From: a virus
Reading direction: 5' to 3' (one strand)
IMG/VR virus record: IMGVR_UViG_3300020172_000002
Span: 1-25,463 of that record
Length of the DNA: 25,463 nucleotides
The position numbers and the translations under genes were made by a program. Below are positions 2,259-15,444 of the stretch, piece by piece. Position 1 is the first letter of the stretch. Every line of letters begins with the position of its first letter. Below the pieces are notes generated by a model that had not been told where the DNA came from, made no database searches, and worked only from the letters and a program-made list of their open reading frames with translations.

Positions 2259-5200
2259 ATGGGCAAACTCAAATTACTCGGCGATGTAGTTGAAGGCGGC
2301 TTGAACGCAATCAAGACGGCAAAGCGCACAACCAATGAGCAGAAGGCGGCTGAGAAGTATGCGGCTGGCGCCCAATACGCTGACCCTCTTGAACCCGCAA
2401 CCATGCGTATGTCTGAGGCGCTGGGCAACGCAGGTGCTGAGGGTAAGACCCTGAACTTTACTGAGGCTGACCGCTCAAGGGTGTTTGGCTCTAACCGCGG
2501 TGGCGTGGGCTTCTCTGGCCTCCAGCACTACTCACTGCCCCACAAGGAAGCTAACACTGTCTGGGGCTTTGGCAAAAAGTCGGTGGCAGAAAAGAAGGTC
2601 AAGCAGAACGACCCAGAGAAAAGCCTGATAACAACCTTCGTGGGTTCGCCTACCCAGCACAAGAGCAACTCTGTCGTCATTGGTGACGCCATCAAAGAAT
2701 TTCAGAAGTCCGTAAAACAGGGCGATGTGCCTCGTGAGCAAATCATGCTTATGAACAAGCGCCTGAATGAAATAACCGATGCCAAGACTGGCGCAAAGGT
2801 TTTTGAGGACGGGTTTGACCTGACTGACCCTAGCGCCTTGAGCGTAGCCAACACTTTCTCTCGACGTGCCGCGGTAGGTGATGTCATGCTTGGGTTGGGC
2901 GTCAAAGGCCCAATGTCTCGTCTGGATTTCAAGAAAAAATTTCCCAACACTAAGTTTGTTGATGGGAGCAACATCGAGAACATCCTAAAGCGAGAGACTG
3001 ACCCTGACCTAGTTAACGCTGGCACATACGACGTAGGCAACCGTCTGTTCGTGATGGACGGCAAAATCATTGAACGCCCAGACCTGAACGAGGCGTTCCC
3101 TTCTCAAGTGACGGGATATGACCTTGGCATGAAGTATCAACTTGTCCCGCCCAACAAGGCCATGCGCGATTTCTACAAGGCGCGTGAGAACAGGTTAGAT
3201 AAAAACCAAAAGCCATCTCCTGTCTCATATTATGACCTTGCAAGAGCGGAGCCATCGCAATTTGTAGACGAGGACTACCTGACGTTTCTCCAAAAAGAGG
3301 GCTACAAAAAGGGCGGAGCCGTCGAGGACTTCGACGCCAAGGTAGACAAGCTGATTCAGAACCACCACTTCGACAACCACGTTGACAAGCGGATTAAGGA
3401 ACACTTCGCTAAGGGTGGAGACGTAAAACTTGCCCGCACTTCTTTGCGCATGGCTGGTGGCGGTATGCTTGGTAAGGGTATGGCTAAGTTAGGCAAGCGC
3501 CTGATGGCTGACCCAGCAGAGGCGACTGCCTCTATTAAGGGCGGCACACGCAAGTTCGGTGACGAGGCTGGTGGCAACACCGTCGTCAAGGATGTTGGCG
3601 GTAACTGGCTGAGAGACAGCACAGGCTCATCATTGAAGACGTTGAAGCGTAAGACGCAAGGCGGAATGAAGCCAGAAGATGCTTTGGTGCAGATGCGTGA
3701 ACGGTTCTCGGATGTGCCAGAACAACAGCAGAACATTCGCAGTCTTGAGGCTGATGTTGCGCTGAACAAGTGGGTTGACAGCAACTTGAACAACTACGTC
3801 AAGAAGCAGATGGGTACGCCTGAAGACCCAGTGCGCAAGCTGGCTGAAGAGGACATCACACACTTCCCTATTGCTGAAGACCCAGCGTTCTGGGAGCGCA
3901 GGGGTGAGTCAAGTCGAAAGAAGCTAGGCGGAAGCAAGATGGCTCAGTCTGACCTTGCCCAGCAGTGGGAGAACCGCACTGACGCAATTATTAAGCGTGA
4001 CACTGCGCAAGAGCATCAGTCGATGATGAGGCAGGCGCCGGGGATGTACGAGAAGGGCGACGAGTGGATAAACAAACTTGCGCCAGAGACTCCGCTCTAC
4101 ACCAGCATCATGAACCCAAGAGACCTTGGCTTTGACCACATCATGGACGTCTTGCGTGCAGACTTGCAGGCTGGTCGTATCCGTCCTGAGCAACTGAACA
4201 AGGTCAGCATGGAGCAGGCAGTACGCCGCACCTACGAGTACGACCAAGAGATGGCCCGCAAGATGGCGCAGTCTCAGTTCGAGGTTACCAAGGATATGCC
4301 TATCCACAAGGACTACGCAGACAAAGGTTACAAGTGGGTTGAGTTGGCCCCGAAAAAAGACAGAAAACCATACACCGAAGAGAATCTTCCGCAGGGTTAC
4401 ACGCTTGAGCAAGACAGAGACGGCTTCTATCAGGTAAGAAACAAAAACGTAGGTGAAGTTCCGACCACCGACAGCTTTTCAAAGACCCCTGAAGAGTCAA
4501 TTGCAAAGTTCAACAAGTGGGCCAAAGACAAAGACTTTGAACTTCAGAGTGCGCTCAAGTACGAAGGCGACACAATGGGTCACTGCGTTGGTTCCTACTG
4601 TGATGACGTTGCTGGTGGCAAAACCCGCATCTACAGCTTGCGTGATGCCAAAGGTGAGCCTCATGTGACGGTTGAGGTTGAACCCAATCCGTCTTGGTTT
4701 ACTAAGGCTGACAAAACCCCAGACCCGTCAGGAAACTATAAAAGTTTTCATTACCTTATTGACAATGAAAGAGCGGAACTTGCAAAGCGAAGTGGCGGGT
4801 TTGGTTCTGTAGGCGAGTCCTACGAGGAGACTGCAAATAGGCTGGCTCAACAATACAATCTAGAAAACTCGCCAAGCATTGTCCAAATCAAAGGCAAAGG
4901 CAACGCCAAGCCTAAAGAAGAGTATCTGCCATTCGTGCAGGACTTTGTCCGCGGCGGCAACTGGTCTGATGTTGGCGACTTCAGGAACACTGGGTTGCTT
5001 CAGCCATACGAAGTTATTGGAGAGGAAAGTTTAAAGGCGTTAAAAGCCAAAGGCATTCCAATTCCCAAGTACCTGACCAAGGAAGAGGCAGACGAACTTG
5101 GTAAGCAAGCCATTCGAGCCTCAGACATTCCAACAATTGATGAGGCGGCAAAGCTGTTGCCACCAGCAGAAGGCATGGCTAATGGCGGAGGCATCCTAAA

Positions 5201-6920
5201 GTACACCACGTTGCGCATGGGCAAGGGCGGACTGCTGGGCAAGGGAGCCAAGGCTCTGGCTGGCGCGATGAAAGGTGAGCAACTGACATCGCAAGCTATT
5301 GGCAAGGCCGCTGAGTCTGCTGGTATGACTGCGCCAGTGACGGCAAACAAGTCGTTGACCAATGTGCAGGACTATCACACCTCCCTGATGGACGAGGTGC
5401 GACGCCGCTCTGTCGAGGCGAGAAAAGAGATGGACGCCTTCAACTATAAGTACGACAAGGGCCAGCGTGTGTTCACTGAGCATGGCGCCAAGAACAACCT
5501 GCCGCCACTTACCGTCCTAGAGCGCAGTCGCCACGGCAATGAAATCATATGGGAAGGTGAGCCTTGGAGAAGCCCGAAGGTCATTGACCCAGAGACAGGC
5601 AAGGCCAAGCGCACGCCGTATGGCCCCGGCTACAAACTGCGGCGCGAAGGCCCAGAAGAGGGTATGTGGCAAGAGTTCACTTTGCCTGAGTCAGCTATCA
5701 AGGGCGATGTGGAGATGGCCCGTGGTGGGGGTGTACTAAAGTACAGTACGCTTCGTAACCGAAACACAACCCAATCACAACCGAATCGGTTTGCTGATGG
5801 TGGTAAGAGCGAGATGAAAGCCACGCCCCGTAAAAAGGGCTACGGTGTAGCATCCGACGTACTCAAAGGGGTGCATGAGTTTGCGTCTAAGCCCTTTGGT
5901 TACGAGAACCCGCCTGTTGAGTTCATCTCCGAACTGCTTGGCATCCCAGCCGCGTCCCGCGTTCTGGACAAGTTAAGTTACGGTGAGCCAATCACCAACG
6001 CAGGCAAGGCCAACGTCCCGCTTATTCCTGACGACACCTTTGACGCGGCAACCGCTGGTCTGGGTGGATTAGGTGCGGCAAGCAAGCTGGCAAAGCCCCT
6101 TGCCAAGGCGGCAAAGAAGTTGCCCAAGGACTTGCCTGTTGGCCTGAGCATCAAGTCGGTGGGTGACAGTCCTTTTGGTGAAAAGATGATGCCTACTGCC
6201 CGCATTGGGTTAGAGGCCCCCGGCATCCTCATCCCCAGCAAGATGAACAACGTCAGAGAGGCTGTCCGCAACACGAAGGGCAACTACGGCGCAAGGCGTG
6301 TTGAGCGTGCGGCTGACGAGATACCAAACCTTGAGAGGATGTACCAAGAAGATGCGCTCAAAGAAGCATTCACTGGTGACAATGCCAGCGCAATGATGTC
6401 TATAAACCCCTCAGATTTTGAAAAGTTTGCCCGCGAACTTGAAAGAAAAACAAGCGTTGGCCCAAAGGCGGCTGAGTTGGCAAAGCAGGGTGACATTGAC
6501 AAGATGACGGTCACAACCGATGAGTACATCAAACACCTGCAAAGATTGAAGGACGGATTCTCTGATGTGCCATACCTAAACTTGAACAAAGATGAGGTAG
6601 GCTTGCCAACTATGCCCAAAGTGATTGGGCATGAAGGTCGCCATAGAAACCGCGCATTGGCTGATGCGGGTGAAAAATCAAGTCTTGTAAAAATTAACCC
6701 TCGTGGCGACTTGCGTGAGGGTATGCCGCGCAGGACTCAAGAGGATTATATTGAGGCACTCAGGGAAGAACTTGAAAGGTCAAACCGTTTGGTTTTGCCA
6801 GAAACAGACCCGTGGTTTCGCAGGCCAGAAATTCAACTTCCAGACATTTATGCCAGAGGCGGCGCTATCCTAAAACACACCACCTTGCGTAACCGCAGGG
6901 CTAACCAACGAGTGAGATAA
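2259..6920 (+). CDS. Giant modular (polyvalent-like) phage protein with PcfJ-like domain and repeated GG tags
   Basis: A 1553-aa protein lodged between terminase and portal. Function is not established, but the position suggests a virion, ejected or assembly-linked product. Four degenerate copies of a tag (consensus [FMY]A[KRN]GG..LK.[TS]TLR) end at residues 397, 986, 1166 and 1544. They divide the protein into modules of about 397, 589, 180 and 387 residues. Module 1 (1-397) has no domain I can name. Module 2 contains a PcfJ-like segment: MGHCVGSYCDDVAGGK (773-788), IYSLRD, then HVTVEVEPN, with IVQIKGKGN (874-882) and RNTGL (909-913) downstream. Module 3 is short. Module 4 has an Ala/Gly/Lys-rich amphipathic stretch (about 1260-1287) and GHEGRHRNRAL (1457-1467). 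PcfJ-like and similar domains occur in the polyvalent proteins of phages and conjugative elements. No frameshift is visible, and the portal gene follows at two bases. Confidence 0.8.
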   Translation: MGKLKLLGDVVEGGLNAIKTAKRTTNEQKAAEKYAAGAQYADPLEPATMRMSEALGNAGAEGKTLNFTEADRSRVFGSNRGGVGFSGLQHYSLPHKEANTVWGFGKKSVAEKKVKQNDPEKSLITTFVGSPTQHKSNSVVIGDAIKEFQKSVKQGDVPREQIMLMNKRLNEITDAKTGAKVFEDGFDLTDPSALSVANTFSRRAAVGDVMLGLGVKGPMSRLDFKKKFPNTKFVDGSNIENILKRETDPDLVNAGTYDVGNRLFVMDGKIIERPDLNEAFPSQVTGYDLGMKYQLVPPNKAMRDFYKARENRLDKNQKPSPVSYYDLARAEPSQFVDEDYLTFLQKEGYKKGGAVEDFDAKVDKLIQNHHFDNHVDKRIKEHFAKGGDVKLARTSLRMAGGGMLGKGMAKLGKRLMADPAEATASIKGGTRKFGDEAGGNTVVKDVGGNWLRDSTGSSLKTLKRKTQGGMKPEDALVQMRERFSDVPEQQQNIRSLEADVALNKWVDSNLNNYVKKQMGTPEDPVRKLAEEDITHFPIAEDPAFWERRGESSRKKLGGSKMAQSDLAQQWENRTDAIIKRDTAQEHQSMMRQAPGMYEKGDEWINKLAPETPLYTSIMNPRDLGFDHIMDVLRADLQAGRIRPEQLNKVSMEQAVRRTYEYDQEMARKMAQSQFEVTKDMPIHKDYADKGYKWVELAPKKDRKPYTEENLPQGYTLEQDRDGFYQVRNKNVGEVPTTDSFSKTPEESIAKFNKWAKDKDFELQSALKYEGDTMGHCVGSYCDDVAGGKTRIYSLRDAKGEPHVTVEVEPNPSWFTKADKTPDPSGNYKSFHYLIDNERAELAKRSGGFGSVGESYEETANRLAQQYNLENSPSIVQIKGKGNAKPKEEYLPFVQDFVRGGNWSDVGDFRNTGLLQPYEVIGEESLKALKAKGIPIPKYLTKEEADELGKQAIRASDIPTIDEAAKLLPPAEGMANGGGILKYTTLRMGKGGLLGKGAKALAGAMKGEQLTSQAIGKAAESAGMTAPVTANKSLTNVQDYHTSLMDEVRRRSVEARKEMDAFNYKYDKGQRVFTEHGAKNNLPPLTVLERSRHGNEIIWEGEPWRSPKVIDPETGKAKRTPYGPGYKLRREGPEEGMWQEFTLPESAIKGDVEMARGGGVLKYSTLRNRNTTQSQPNRFADGGKSEMKATPRKKGYGVASDVLKGVHEFASKPFGYENPPVEFISELLGIPAASRVLDKLSYGEPITNAGKANVPLIPDDTFDAATAGLGGLGAASKLAKPLAKAAKKLPKDLPVGLSIKSVGDSPFGEKMMPTARIGLEAPGILIPSKMNNVREAVRNTKGNYGARRVERAADEIPNLERMYQEDALKEAFTGDNASAMMSINPSDFEKFARELERKTSVGPKAAELAKQGDIDKMTVTTDEYIKHLQRLKDGFSDVPYLNLNKDEVGLPTMPKVIGHEGRHRNRALADAGEKSSLVKINPRGDLREGMPRRTQEDYIEALREELERSNRLVLPETDPWFRRPEIQLPDIYARGGAILKHTTLRNRRANQRVR
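3405..3449 (+). repeat. GG tag copy 1 in the giant protein (degenerate)
   Basis: Encodes FAKGGDVKLARTSLR, residues 383-397, followed at once by MAGGGMLGKG. It has one more residue than the other copies and is the most diverged. A related YKKGGAV lies about 30 residues upstream (349-355). Confidence 0.6.
5175..5216 (+). repeat. GG tag copy 2 in the giant protein
   Basis: Encodes MANGGGILKYTTLR, residues 973-986, followed by MGKGGLLGKG. Both the tag and the sequence after it match copy 1, so tag plus a glycine-rich restart forms a joint between modules. Confidence 0.75.
5715..5756 (+). repeat. GG tag copy 3 in the giant protein
   Basis: Encodes MARGGGVLKYSTLR, residues 1153-1166, followed by NRN. 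A second Gly-Gly element, NRFADGGKSEM, lies 10 residues downstream (1176-1186). Confidence 0.75.
6849..6890 (+). repeat. GG tag copy 4 at the C-terminus of the giant protein
   Basis: Encodes YARGGAILKHTTLR, residues 1531-1544, then NRRANQRVR to the stop. That this copy forms the C-terminus suggests the internal copies were once C-termini too. Confidence 0.75.
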
Positions 6921-9617: not shown

Positions 9618-9799
9618 AGTTAGTTTCCGACTTTATTAGCGCTGTAAAAGCGCGTCAGGCAGAGATTGCAAAGGGGTTGGCGCATGGAAATGCGTCCGAC
9701 TTCAATGCATACCAACGCCTAGTCGGGGAAAACTTAGGACTTGAGGCATCCCTTGAGATTCTTAACCACCTTTTGAAAGAAGATGAAGATGACAGATAG
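9614..9799 (+). CDS. Small conserved phage protein (61 aa)
   Basis: A 61-aa, probably all-helical protein with core AEIAKGLAHGNASDFNAYQR followed by LVGENLGLEASLEILN and an acidic end (KEDEDDR). Small proteins with an ALA.GN..D...YQRLVGE-like pattern are widespread next to portal and head genes in tailed phages. No activity is known to me. It overlaps the upstream ORF by four bases (ATGA) and the GroES-like gene by 17 bases, so the three are probably translated together. Confidence 0.72.
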   Translation: MKLVSDFISAVKARQAEIAKGLAHGNASDFNAYQRLVGENLGLEASLEILNHLLKEDEDDR

Positions 9800-10211
9800 C
9801 ACGGTAGCGGGTAATGCCGCTGATTTACAGGAAGCCTTTCCTGTTGTAGACCCCGGTGCGATTCCCCTTGGTGCGCGAGTGCTTGTTCAACTGCGCAAAG
9901 CCAAGAAACGAATGACTCAATCTGGGATTATTTTGCCTGAAGAGACTCGCGACACCGAACGGGCGCAAAACCCCGTTGCAAAGGTGATTGCATTTGGCCC
10001 GTTGGCGTTCAAAAAACGCGACACGATGGAGCCTTGGGTCGAGGGTATTTGGTGTGAGGTGGGTGACTACCTTCGCGTACCCAAATGGACTGGCGACCGC
10101 TGGAATGTTCCACATGGAGAAGACGAAAACGTCGAGTTCATGGTGCTGAACGACCACGAAGTGATTGCCAAAATCACAGGTAATCCACTTGAAGTGAGGG
10201 CATTTGTATGA
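9783..10211 (+). CDS. GroES-like co-chaperonin (Cpn10)
   Basis: Probable phage co-chaperonin that would cap the host GroEL and modify folding of phage proteins, most plausibly the capsid protein, as T4 gp31 does. The GroES fold is readable. The first strand is PLGARVLVQL (residues 28-37), and the mobile loop KKRMTQSGIILPEETRD (41-57) carries the GroEL-contacting hydrophobic tripeptide IIL at 49-51, where GroES has IVL. Next come NPVAKVIAFGP (63-73), EVGDYLRVPKWTG (92-104) and the closing strand FMVLNDHEVIAKI (119-131). At 142 aa it is longer than GroES (about 97), with extra residues at both ends and between strands. An ATG two codons downstream (9789) is an alternative start. It overlaps the scaffold-like gene as ATGA. 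Confidence 0.86.
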   Translation: MKMTDSTVAGNAADLQEAFPVVDPGAIPLGARVLVQLRKAKKRMTQSGIILPEETRDTERAQNPVAKVIAFGPLAFKKRDTMEPWVEGIWCEVGDYLRVPKWTGDRWNVPHGEDENVEFMVLNDHEVIAKITGNPLEVRAFV

Positions 10212-14328: not shown

Positions 14329-15444
14329 ATGGGACAATTTAAACCAATGGTGAAGATGGAGACCACGGAGCCTACAGTTGAGTTAAAACTCAAAAAAGGC
14401 GGTCACGTCAACATGAAAAAAGGTGGTAAAGCCGAAGCTGGTCATAAAAAGATGGCTGGTGGCGGCGCTATGGAGATGATGATGGGAACGCCCGCTTTGG
14501 TGGGTCGTCCTGCTGTTAACGCTCCTGTTCGCGCCCCCGGCAAGCCCTCTATGGCGTCGCGTCGCAAGGCAATGATGGCTAAGAAGCCTATGCCTGCTGT
14601 AACGCCTTCTGGCCCCGCTATGCCCGCTCCCGCCATGAAAAAAGGTGGCGAGTCCAAGAAAACGCACATGGCTGAGATGTCAAAGATGAAGGGTCTTGAG
14701 AAAGAACTGAAGTCTCACGAGTCCAAGCCTGCCAGCAAGGGCCACAAAGGTCTGAAGACTGGTGGCGTGACTAATGGTCAAGGTGGCTACAAAACTGGTG
14801 GTGTTGCCCTTGGTAACGGCGGCGGTTACAAAACTGGCGGCGTCTCAATGAGCAATGCTGGTGGCTACAAAATGGGAGGTAAAACCTCAAAAAAAGCCTA
14901 CGCGGCGGGGGGTACTGTTAATTCAGGCAAACCCGTCGCGATGCCCGAAGGTCGCAAACCTGTACCCGCCCCTGTAAGAGTTAGCCAACTGGCTGGTACT
15001 TACAAGAACGGTGGTCGAGCAACTCCCGCGGAAGCACGCTTGTTGAAAAACAACGCCGCAGAGAACTCGACTGCTATGCGCGAAGCTAAAACTGACAGCA
15101 ACCTGAAATATGGTTCGCCTAAGCGGATGCAGAGCGGTGGCGCAATTTCTAACAAAGACATCGCTAATGCTTATGCAATTGATAAAGCAACAGGCGATAA
15201 ACTTGTAGATTTGTCCAAAGGTGGTTACGACAAAGCTGGAAAGAACAGCCGTGAATTAGAGGATGCATTGAATCCTTTGAGCATGGCTAAAGAACTTTAC
15301 GGCAAGGCTCGTGATTACTTTAAAGGCGAAGGCTCAGTTACGGACAAAGAAAGGTCGATGCTTCCATCTGGAAGCGTCACCAAAACTGAAAAGTCTGTGA
15401 CGGTTGCACCAGCAGGAAAAAGACGCGGCGGACGCGCTTGTTGA
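14329..15444 (+). CDS. Very basic Lys/Gly-rich repeat protein with many GG tags
   Basis: A 371-aa low-complexity protein of very high predicted pI, with a strong ribosome site (AAAGGAGAGCAAC). The N-terminal half is rich in Lys, Met, Ala, Pro and Gly with KKGG at 22-25, 30-33 and 104-107. Residues 142-184 hold a near-perfect tandem of (Y/L)K(T/M)GG units. More tag-like elements follow: YAAGGTVN (191-198), YKNGGRATP (225-233), MQSGGAIS (267-274) and KRRGGRAC at the C-terminus. The C-terminal third is more ordinary, probably helical (EDALNPLSMAKELYGKARDY). It lies between two strong terminators with the preceding virion gene. I recognise no enzymatic family. The composition would suit nucleic-acid binding or packaging inside the head, but that is inference. 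Confidence 0.72.
   Translation: MGQFKPMVKMETTEPTVELKLKKGGHVNMKKGGKAEAGHKKMAGGGAMEMMMGTPALVGRPAVNAPVRAPGKPSMASRRKAMMAKKPMPAVTPSGPAMPAPAMKKGGESKKTHMAEMSKMKGLEKELKSHESKPASKGHKGLKTGGVTNGQGGYKTGGVALGNGGGYKTGGVSMSNAGGYKMGGKTSKKAYAAGGTVNSGKPVAMPEGRKPVPAPVRVSQLAGTYKNGGRATPAEARLLKNNAAENSTAMREAKTDSNLKYGSPKRMQSGGAISNKDIANAYAIDKATGDKLVDLSKGGYDKAGKNSRELEDALNPLSMAKELYGKARDYFKGEGSVTDKERSMLPSGSVTKTEKSVTVAPAGKRRGGRAC
14752..14880 (+). repeat. Tandem KTGG-type peptide repeats
   Basis: Four consecutive units encode LKTGGVTNGQGG, YKTGGVALGNGG, YKTGGVSMSNAG and YKMGG. Three are 12-14 codons apart, and the repeat is clear at both DNA and peptide level. Confidence 0.85.

Follow-up and report, generated by a model that had tools for sequence, protein, structure and literature searches.

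Features of the locus

The window, by which we mean the whole stretch of 25,463 nucleotides analysed here (IMG/VR record IMGVR_UViG_3300020172_000002, positions 1 to 25,463), carries an open reading frame on the plus strand at 2259-6920 that encodes a protein of 1553 amino acids. The gene order is terS-terL-protein-portal-Cpn10-capsid, both in the window and in its relatives. We found the following features in the protein and its gene.

2259..6920, plus strand: modular polyvalent-type protein, 1553 aa, between terL and portal
2379..3305, plus strand: module A, residues 41-349, delimited by alignment; AlphaFold model folded over 41-349; commonest module family
3303..3320, plus strand: joint YKKGGA ending module A, residues 349-354 (Gly-Gly at 352-353); Gly-Gly invariant in 24 aligned relatives
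3405..3449, plus strand: tag copy 1, residues 383-397, FAKGGDVKLARTSLR; divergent, 15 aa
3450..3518, plus strand: start segment, residues 398-420, MAGGGMLGKGMAKLGKRLMADPA; resembles the relatives' N-termini MADPKKILGGLGKxxKRL
3519..5165, plus strand: PcfJ-like module, residues 421-969, with the PcfJ core at 764-809 (Pfam PF14284)
5175..5216, plus strand: tag copy 2, residues 973-986, MANGGGILKYTTLR; found by repeat search; crossover inside the tag in relative L002
5217..5276, plus strand: start segment, residues 987-1006, MGKGGLLGKGAKALAGAMKG; read from the sequence
5277..5714, plus strand: module M3, residues 1007-1152, without Pfam match; L001 has an ART module in its place, L002 lacks it
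5715..5756, plus strand: tag copy 3, residues 1153-1166, MARGGGVLKYSTLR; from sequence comparison of the tag copies
5790..5804, plus strand: extra joint FADGG, residues 1178-1182; motif in the sequence
5814..6113, plus strand: module W, residues 1186-1285, the least hydrophilic stretch
6189..6848, plus strand: ParB/sulfiredoxin-like module, residues 1311-1530, motif GHEGRHRNRA; alignment, model (pLDDT 84.8) and Foldseek/VIA
6849..6890, plus strand: tag copy 4, residues 1531-1544, YARGGAILKHTTLR; all 36 aligned relatives have the Gly-Gly; DNA homology to L197 picks up again at 6852
6891..6917, plus strand: C-terminal tail NRRANQRVR, residues 1545-1553; a lineage tail adjoining the portal start, common to L001 and L197

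The original prediction placed four copies of a tag in this reading frame, with a restart of Met and a Gly-rich segment after the first two, and both the copies and the restarts are present. The last copy, which had been taken for the natural C-terminus, lies near the end and not at it, since nine more residues follow. The core of the tag, [FMY]A[KRN]GG, occurs four times in the protein, whereas 2000 composition shuffles gave 0.019 on average and never more than 1. Additional joints of this Gly-Gly type are at residues 352 (YKKGGAV), 400, 990 and 1181. In a de novo DNA repeat search no direct repeat of the gene was longer than the tags (41 nt at 5175/5715/6849 and 42 nt at 3437/5204). The DNA copies of the tag share only about 60-69% identity. 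Because identical residues of copies 2-4 are encoded by identical codons in just 12 of 29 cases, it is the protein and not the DNA that is conserved in the tags. The number of promoters and terminators at the joints was about the same as in shuffled sequences.

Elsewhere in this gene order, the window encodes a Cpn10 (GroES-like) co-chaperonin at 9783-10211, in the interval between portal and capsid (Pfam, 1.1e-8), and Cpn10 is also annotated in Caulobacter RW, HTVC027P and DSL-LC04. Three relatives have terminase large subunits that are 300-470 aa longer than that of the window and contain intein/Hint domains (L006:4605-6974, L030:773-3082 and L054:1-2835).

Modules and class of the protein

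The PcfJ-like module matched PF14284 with 33.4 bits, above the curated cutoff of 25, over profile positions 75-122 of 147. For the ParB-like module, the best Foldseek match was the ParB-like protein PadC (E 0.036), the VIA rows were mostly Srx/ParB/Osa/SbnI with Z up to 4.3, and the motif GRHRNRA was conserved in the alignment of relatives. These scores are weak and the list is consistent; together with the modelled fold and a motif of the G-x-H-R type they place the module in the ParB/sulfiredoxin superfamily. Its HEGRH was considered as a zincin motif and rejected, as the model puts it at the end of a strand and has a fold that matches ParB/Srx. A search for the module in bacterial genomes found none. 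In two models the confidence drops to low values at the tag, so that the joint sits at the edge between folded and disordered sequence. A structurally similar Flavobacterium phage protein carries the annotation 'Structural protein'; virion data for it were sought in the open-licence literature, where the name of the phage was not found.

Module A has a tentative and weak resemblance to YTH/EVE (PUA-like) domains, in that YTH chains were at the top of the VIA list for its model (Z 5.5, rmsd 4.0 over 130 residues), with Foldseek E values above 1. By sequence, its single match in the PDB was an antifreeze-repeat chain (E 0.0004, residues 14-63), which we rejected since no stretch passed alone. 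Module W is possibly a membrane or core segment. The profile similarity among the hydrophobic modules H, H2 and W was weak, and a single family is not claimed.

Judged by sequence and gene order, the giant protein belongs to the phage polyvalent proteins, a class predicted to be injected with the DNA. Two features of that class are found here: the location among the late genes of the virion cluster, in the window and its relatives, and several disparate domains in one polypeptide. The domains in the window protein are PcfJ and the ParB/Srx fold, and the class-curated models ART-PolyVal and LPD23 match in relatives only. No MPTase domain was found in the window protein, whose sole HExxH is the HEGRH of the ParB-like motif. 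A PADLOC search gave zero matches.

The slot in relatives

Relatives were collected in overlapping scans, comprising a first scan (12 loci), a portal-anchored scan (80), a scan with the ParB-like module (46) and a scan with module A (80). In close relatives, one to three large proteins occupy the slot between terL and portal. After removal of near-identical sequences, 85 slot proteins remained, and they had 70 different architectures, that is, orders of modules. Further domains in these relatives were ART-PolyVal, ParB_N, LPD23 with a zincin-like motif and a GDSL hydrolase. The zincin-like LHEMQH occurred in just 4 of the 85 slot proteins and is not in the window. The slot is accessory, since both Caulobacter phage RW and Roseobacter phage CRP-901 have it empty. 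It is filled in phage DSL-LC04.

In Caulobacter phage RW the slot holds nothing but a tRNA-Val, and two genes annotated as 'large terminase subunit' flank a methyltransferase. Distant relatives (L068, L070, L071, L076, L083, L084 and L091-L093) have different slot proteins upstream of the portal, and these share another C-terminal motif, QNPNxGYxLGxxPLS.

A signature at module ends

The motif [A/K]xGG ended the ParB-like module in 39 of 40 cases, ART in 28 of 28, the PcfJ-like module in 9 of 9 and M3 in 6 of 6. For module A it was found in 25 of 31 regex hits, and the remaining 6 are apparently false matches of the regex. Among 70 additional module A loci, 58 had the Gly-Gly at most about 5 residues from where it was expected, and in most of the others the printed segments place it slightly before that point. 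Where module A is the last module (L171, L172, L187, L214 and L216) it has the same tag, and the gene ends shortly after. Furthermore, 54 of 73 slot proteins carried the tag at their natural C-terminus, compared with 6 of 361 other ORFs from the same loci (p 1.6e-45), and the core density per 1000 aa was 3.06 in slot proteins versus 0.26 in other ORFs.

In the alignments of module A and of the ParB-like module both glycines were invariant, while the sequence downstream differed in nearly every relative. Across joints the Gly-Gly was conserved at 80-85% and the flanks mostly at 40-57%, compared with 72-78% and near 60%, respectively, for equally chosen Gly-Gly pairs outside joints; part of the conservation at joints is ascertainment, because these pairs were picked for having Gly-Gly in the query. 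From these sequence comparisons, modules of unrelated families have their ends marked by the signature, and the Gly-Gly is kept where the flanks are not. The long form with LK.TTLR is a lineage-specific extension and the general core is [A/K]-x-G-G; the four copies stand, and the original consensus was in this part too narrow.

Recurrent tails were seen beyond the last Gly-Gly of slot proteins (LSAIEKV, DDLIIEERPL, GGLAAMAR and GGLTLMR), some of them after different last modules. The tails may partly reflect the region of the portal translation start.

Exchange at the joints

We found that 62% of right-hand BLAST ends, counting those internal to both proteins, lay within 8 aa of a Gly-Gly, compared with 18.6% for a null of shifted controls (z 16.7, support at least 5). 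Similarly, the ends of near-identical DNA segments were within 6 codons of a Gly-Gly in 47.7% versus 14.2% for the null. Individual relatives gave the same picture. In L001 the ART module that replaces M3 has near-identical DNA before it and high identity after it. L002 has lost exactly M3, its DNA matching window tag 2 up to the Gly-Gly codons and crossing over within them to window tag 3. Over 5 kb, beginning at tag 4 and extending across the capsid region, L197 and the window share 91% identity. Upstream of this stretch L197 has different cassettes; its blocks of homology start at positions 5723 (codon 1156, a Gly of tag 3) and 6852 (codon 1532, tag 4) of the window, and its joints retain tags of the LK..TLR type. 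Finally, in L129, L118, L048, L051, L053 and L097 the modules are encoded by separate genes that almost abut, and the products of the upstream ones end in the tag.

As read from these alignments, modules are swapped, deleted and split into separate genes at the joints. The original prediction that tag-ended units had been joined in line is therefore strongly supported: break points coincide with tags, unrelated families end in A-x-GG whether internal or last, and relatives have the modules as genes of their own. The opposite outcome, a low-complexity linker with no relation to borders or C-termini, was not what we found.

What the joint may do

We propose that the interval between terL and portal serves as an accessory slot for cassettes and that the gene in it encodes one polyvalent protein. 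The chain would be a row of unrelated effector-like modules (PcfJ-like, ParB/Srx-like, two unknown and one relatively hydrophobic), almost all with a C-terminal [A/K]-x-Gly-Gly of their own, after which the next module begins with a short segment that is basic or amphipathic. By analogy with other phage polyvalent proteins, the product is predicted to be packaged in the virion and ejected along with the DNA; its modules, going by their class, would act on the host or host defences early in infection. In the leading mechanism the joint would be a recognition element carried by each module. Taken as a whole, a modular polyvalent protein with a standard joint is probably the best explanation of the locus.

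With regard to the joint itself, we tentatively favour a cut site that would release the modules over a docking tag or a passive linker. A cut site accounts for the retention of every internal copy and for modules that exist as separate genes, whereas a docking tag explains the C-terminal copies and a passive linker the break points. Spelled out, A-x-GG would be the site of a putative protease and the chain an effector polyprotein whose interchangeable modules meet at a standard cleavage joint, a fuller version that we hold somewhat more loosely. Against cutting, the tag is kept at natural C-termini, where only a short tail would be trimmed. Pfam recognised no processing protease among the 35 ORFs of the 54-kb relative G001, whose peptidase-type domains were only an M15 endolysin type and a tail S74. 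Retention of the Gly-Gly could also come partly from frequent recombination that imports intact joints. The C-terminal copies are better accommodated if A-x-GG is a loading or ejection tag, a short linear motif that some component of the virion binds; modules that fuse and split repeatedly would each keep a copy, leaving the motif both internal and C-terminal. It is also present in separate one- or two-module genes (L129), and a neighbouring protein of the virion cluster, at 14329-15444, has 11 similar KxGG motifs, with resembling arrays in relatives. However, other late proteins are mostly without it (the 6 of 361 above), and one copy per chain would be enough, yet the internal copies are conserved, which leaves a loading tag rather unlikely.

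Equally doubtful is a passive standard linker, a flexible spacer conserved since recombination joins only where the linkers of both partners match. This would account for the break points, for the crossover within Gly codons and for the position of the joint at the edge of folded sequence in both models, but what is retained in unrelated families is a specific A-x-GG and not general flexibility, and the codon comparison of copies 2-4 argues that protein and not DNA is conserved. The same comparison weakens the idea of a recombination site that acts at the level of the DNA and has no function in the protein: the crossover mapped within the tag in L002 and the rank of the tags as the longest repeats fit it, but the DNA copies of the tag share only about 60-69% identity, the amino acids being conserved instead, and no recombinase was found adjoining, so that we consider it very improbable. 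Least credible of all are internal translation starts giving separate proteins from one mRNA. A Met does stand directly after tags 1 and 2, but it is missing after tag 3; no Shine-Dalgarno match precedes Met398 and only AAG precedes Met987, an argument that is weak because several real starts here also have no strong match.

Relation to known systems

Polyvalent proteins, for example P1 DarB/DdrB and N4 vRNAP, are predicted to be injected with the DNA and were proposed to be processed by a built-in metallopeptidase, the MPTase being common and not obligatory (Iyer et al. 2017, PMC5512222). The text of that paper has no 'linker' or joint motif and leaves the PcfJ-like domain unmentioned. The present protein resembles the class in combining several unrelated effector-type domains in one large protein, in its late-gene place beside the packaging genes, in its ParB/Srx fold and the ART domains of relatives, in extensive domain shuffling, and in the LPD23 and zincin-like motif of some relatives. 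It differs from the class as described in the common [A/K]xGG motif at joints and C-termini, in its PcfJ-like domain and in having no MPTase, with HEMQH rare among slot proteins. The original remark that no described phage system uses the tag is to be corrected as regards the protein class, which is already described; for the module-end joint, no description of such a motif was found in the open-licence literature (subscription journals lay outside this scope). A lineage mostly without the metallopeptidase, with a single short signature at the ends of modules that are often exchanged there, makes it testable how polyvalent proteins release or deliver their many activities. Moreover, a signature that delimits modules offers a route to new injected phage effectors without known domains.

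Viral polyproteins of adenovirus and ASFV are cleaved at Gly-Gly motifs between functional units. Gly-Gly thus lies between units in both cases; here no matching protease was seen, and a relationship is not claimed. In heads of the SPN3US/T4 type, many head proteins, some of them ejected, share AXE, a short cut motif of the prohead protease (PMC10052503). One short motif is likewise common to many proteins here, but removal there concerns mainly N-terminal propeptides, whereas here the motif stands between whole modules, and Pfam recognised no prohead protease in the 35 ORFs of G001. Mosaic phage proteins that arise by domain shuffling have been described without mention of polyvalent proteins (PMC10684548); domains are exchanged in both, and in the present case a joint motif recurs and the genomic slot is fixed.

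The KxGG-array protein of the window is 371 aa long, lies downstream of the capsid gene, ends in RRGGRAC and has no Pfam match. Similar array proteins were picked out in 22 loci, with lengths of 333-482 aa in the 14 listed. In the late region of G001 (L137:10378-11765), an acyl-carrier-protein-like ORF adjoins a ketoacyl-synthase ORF.
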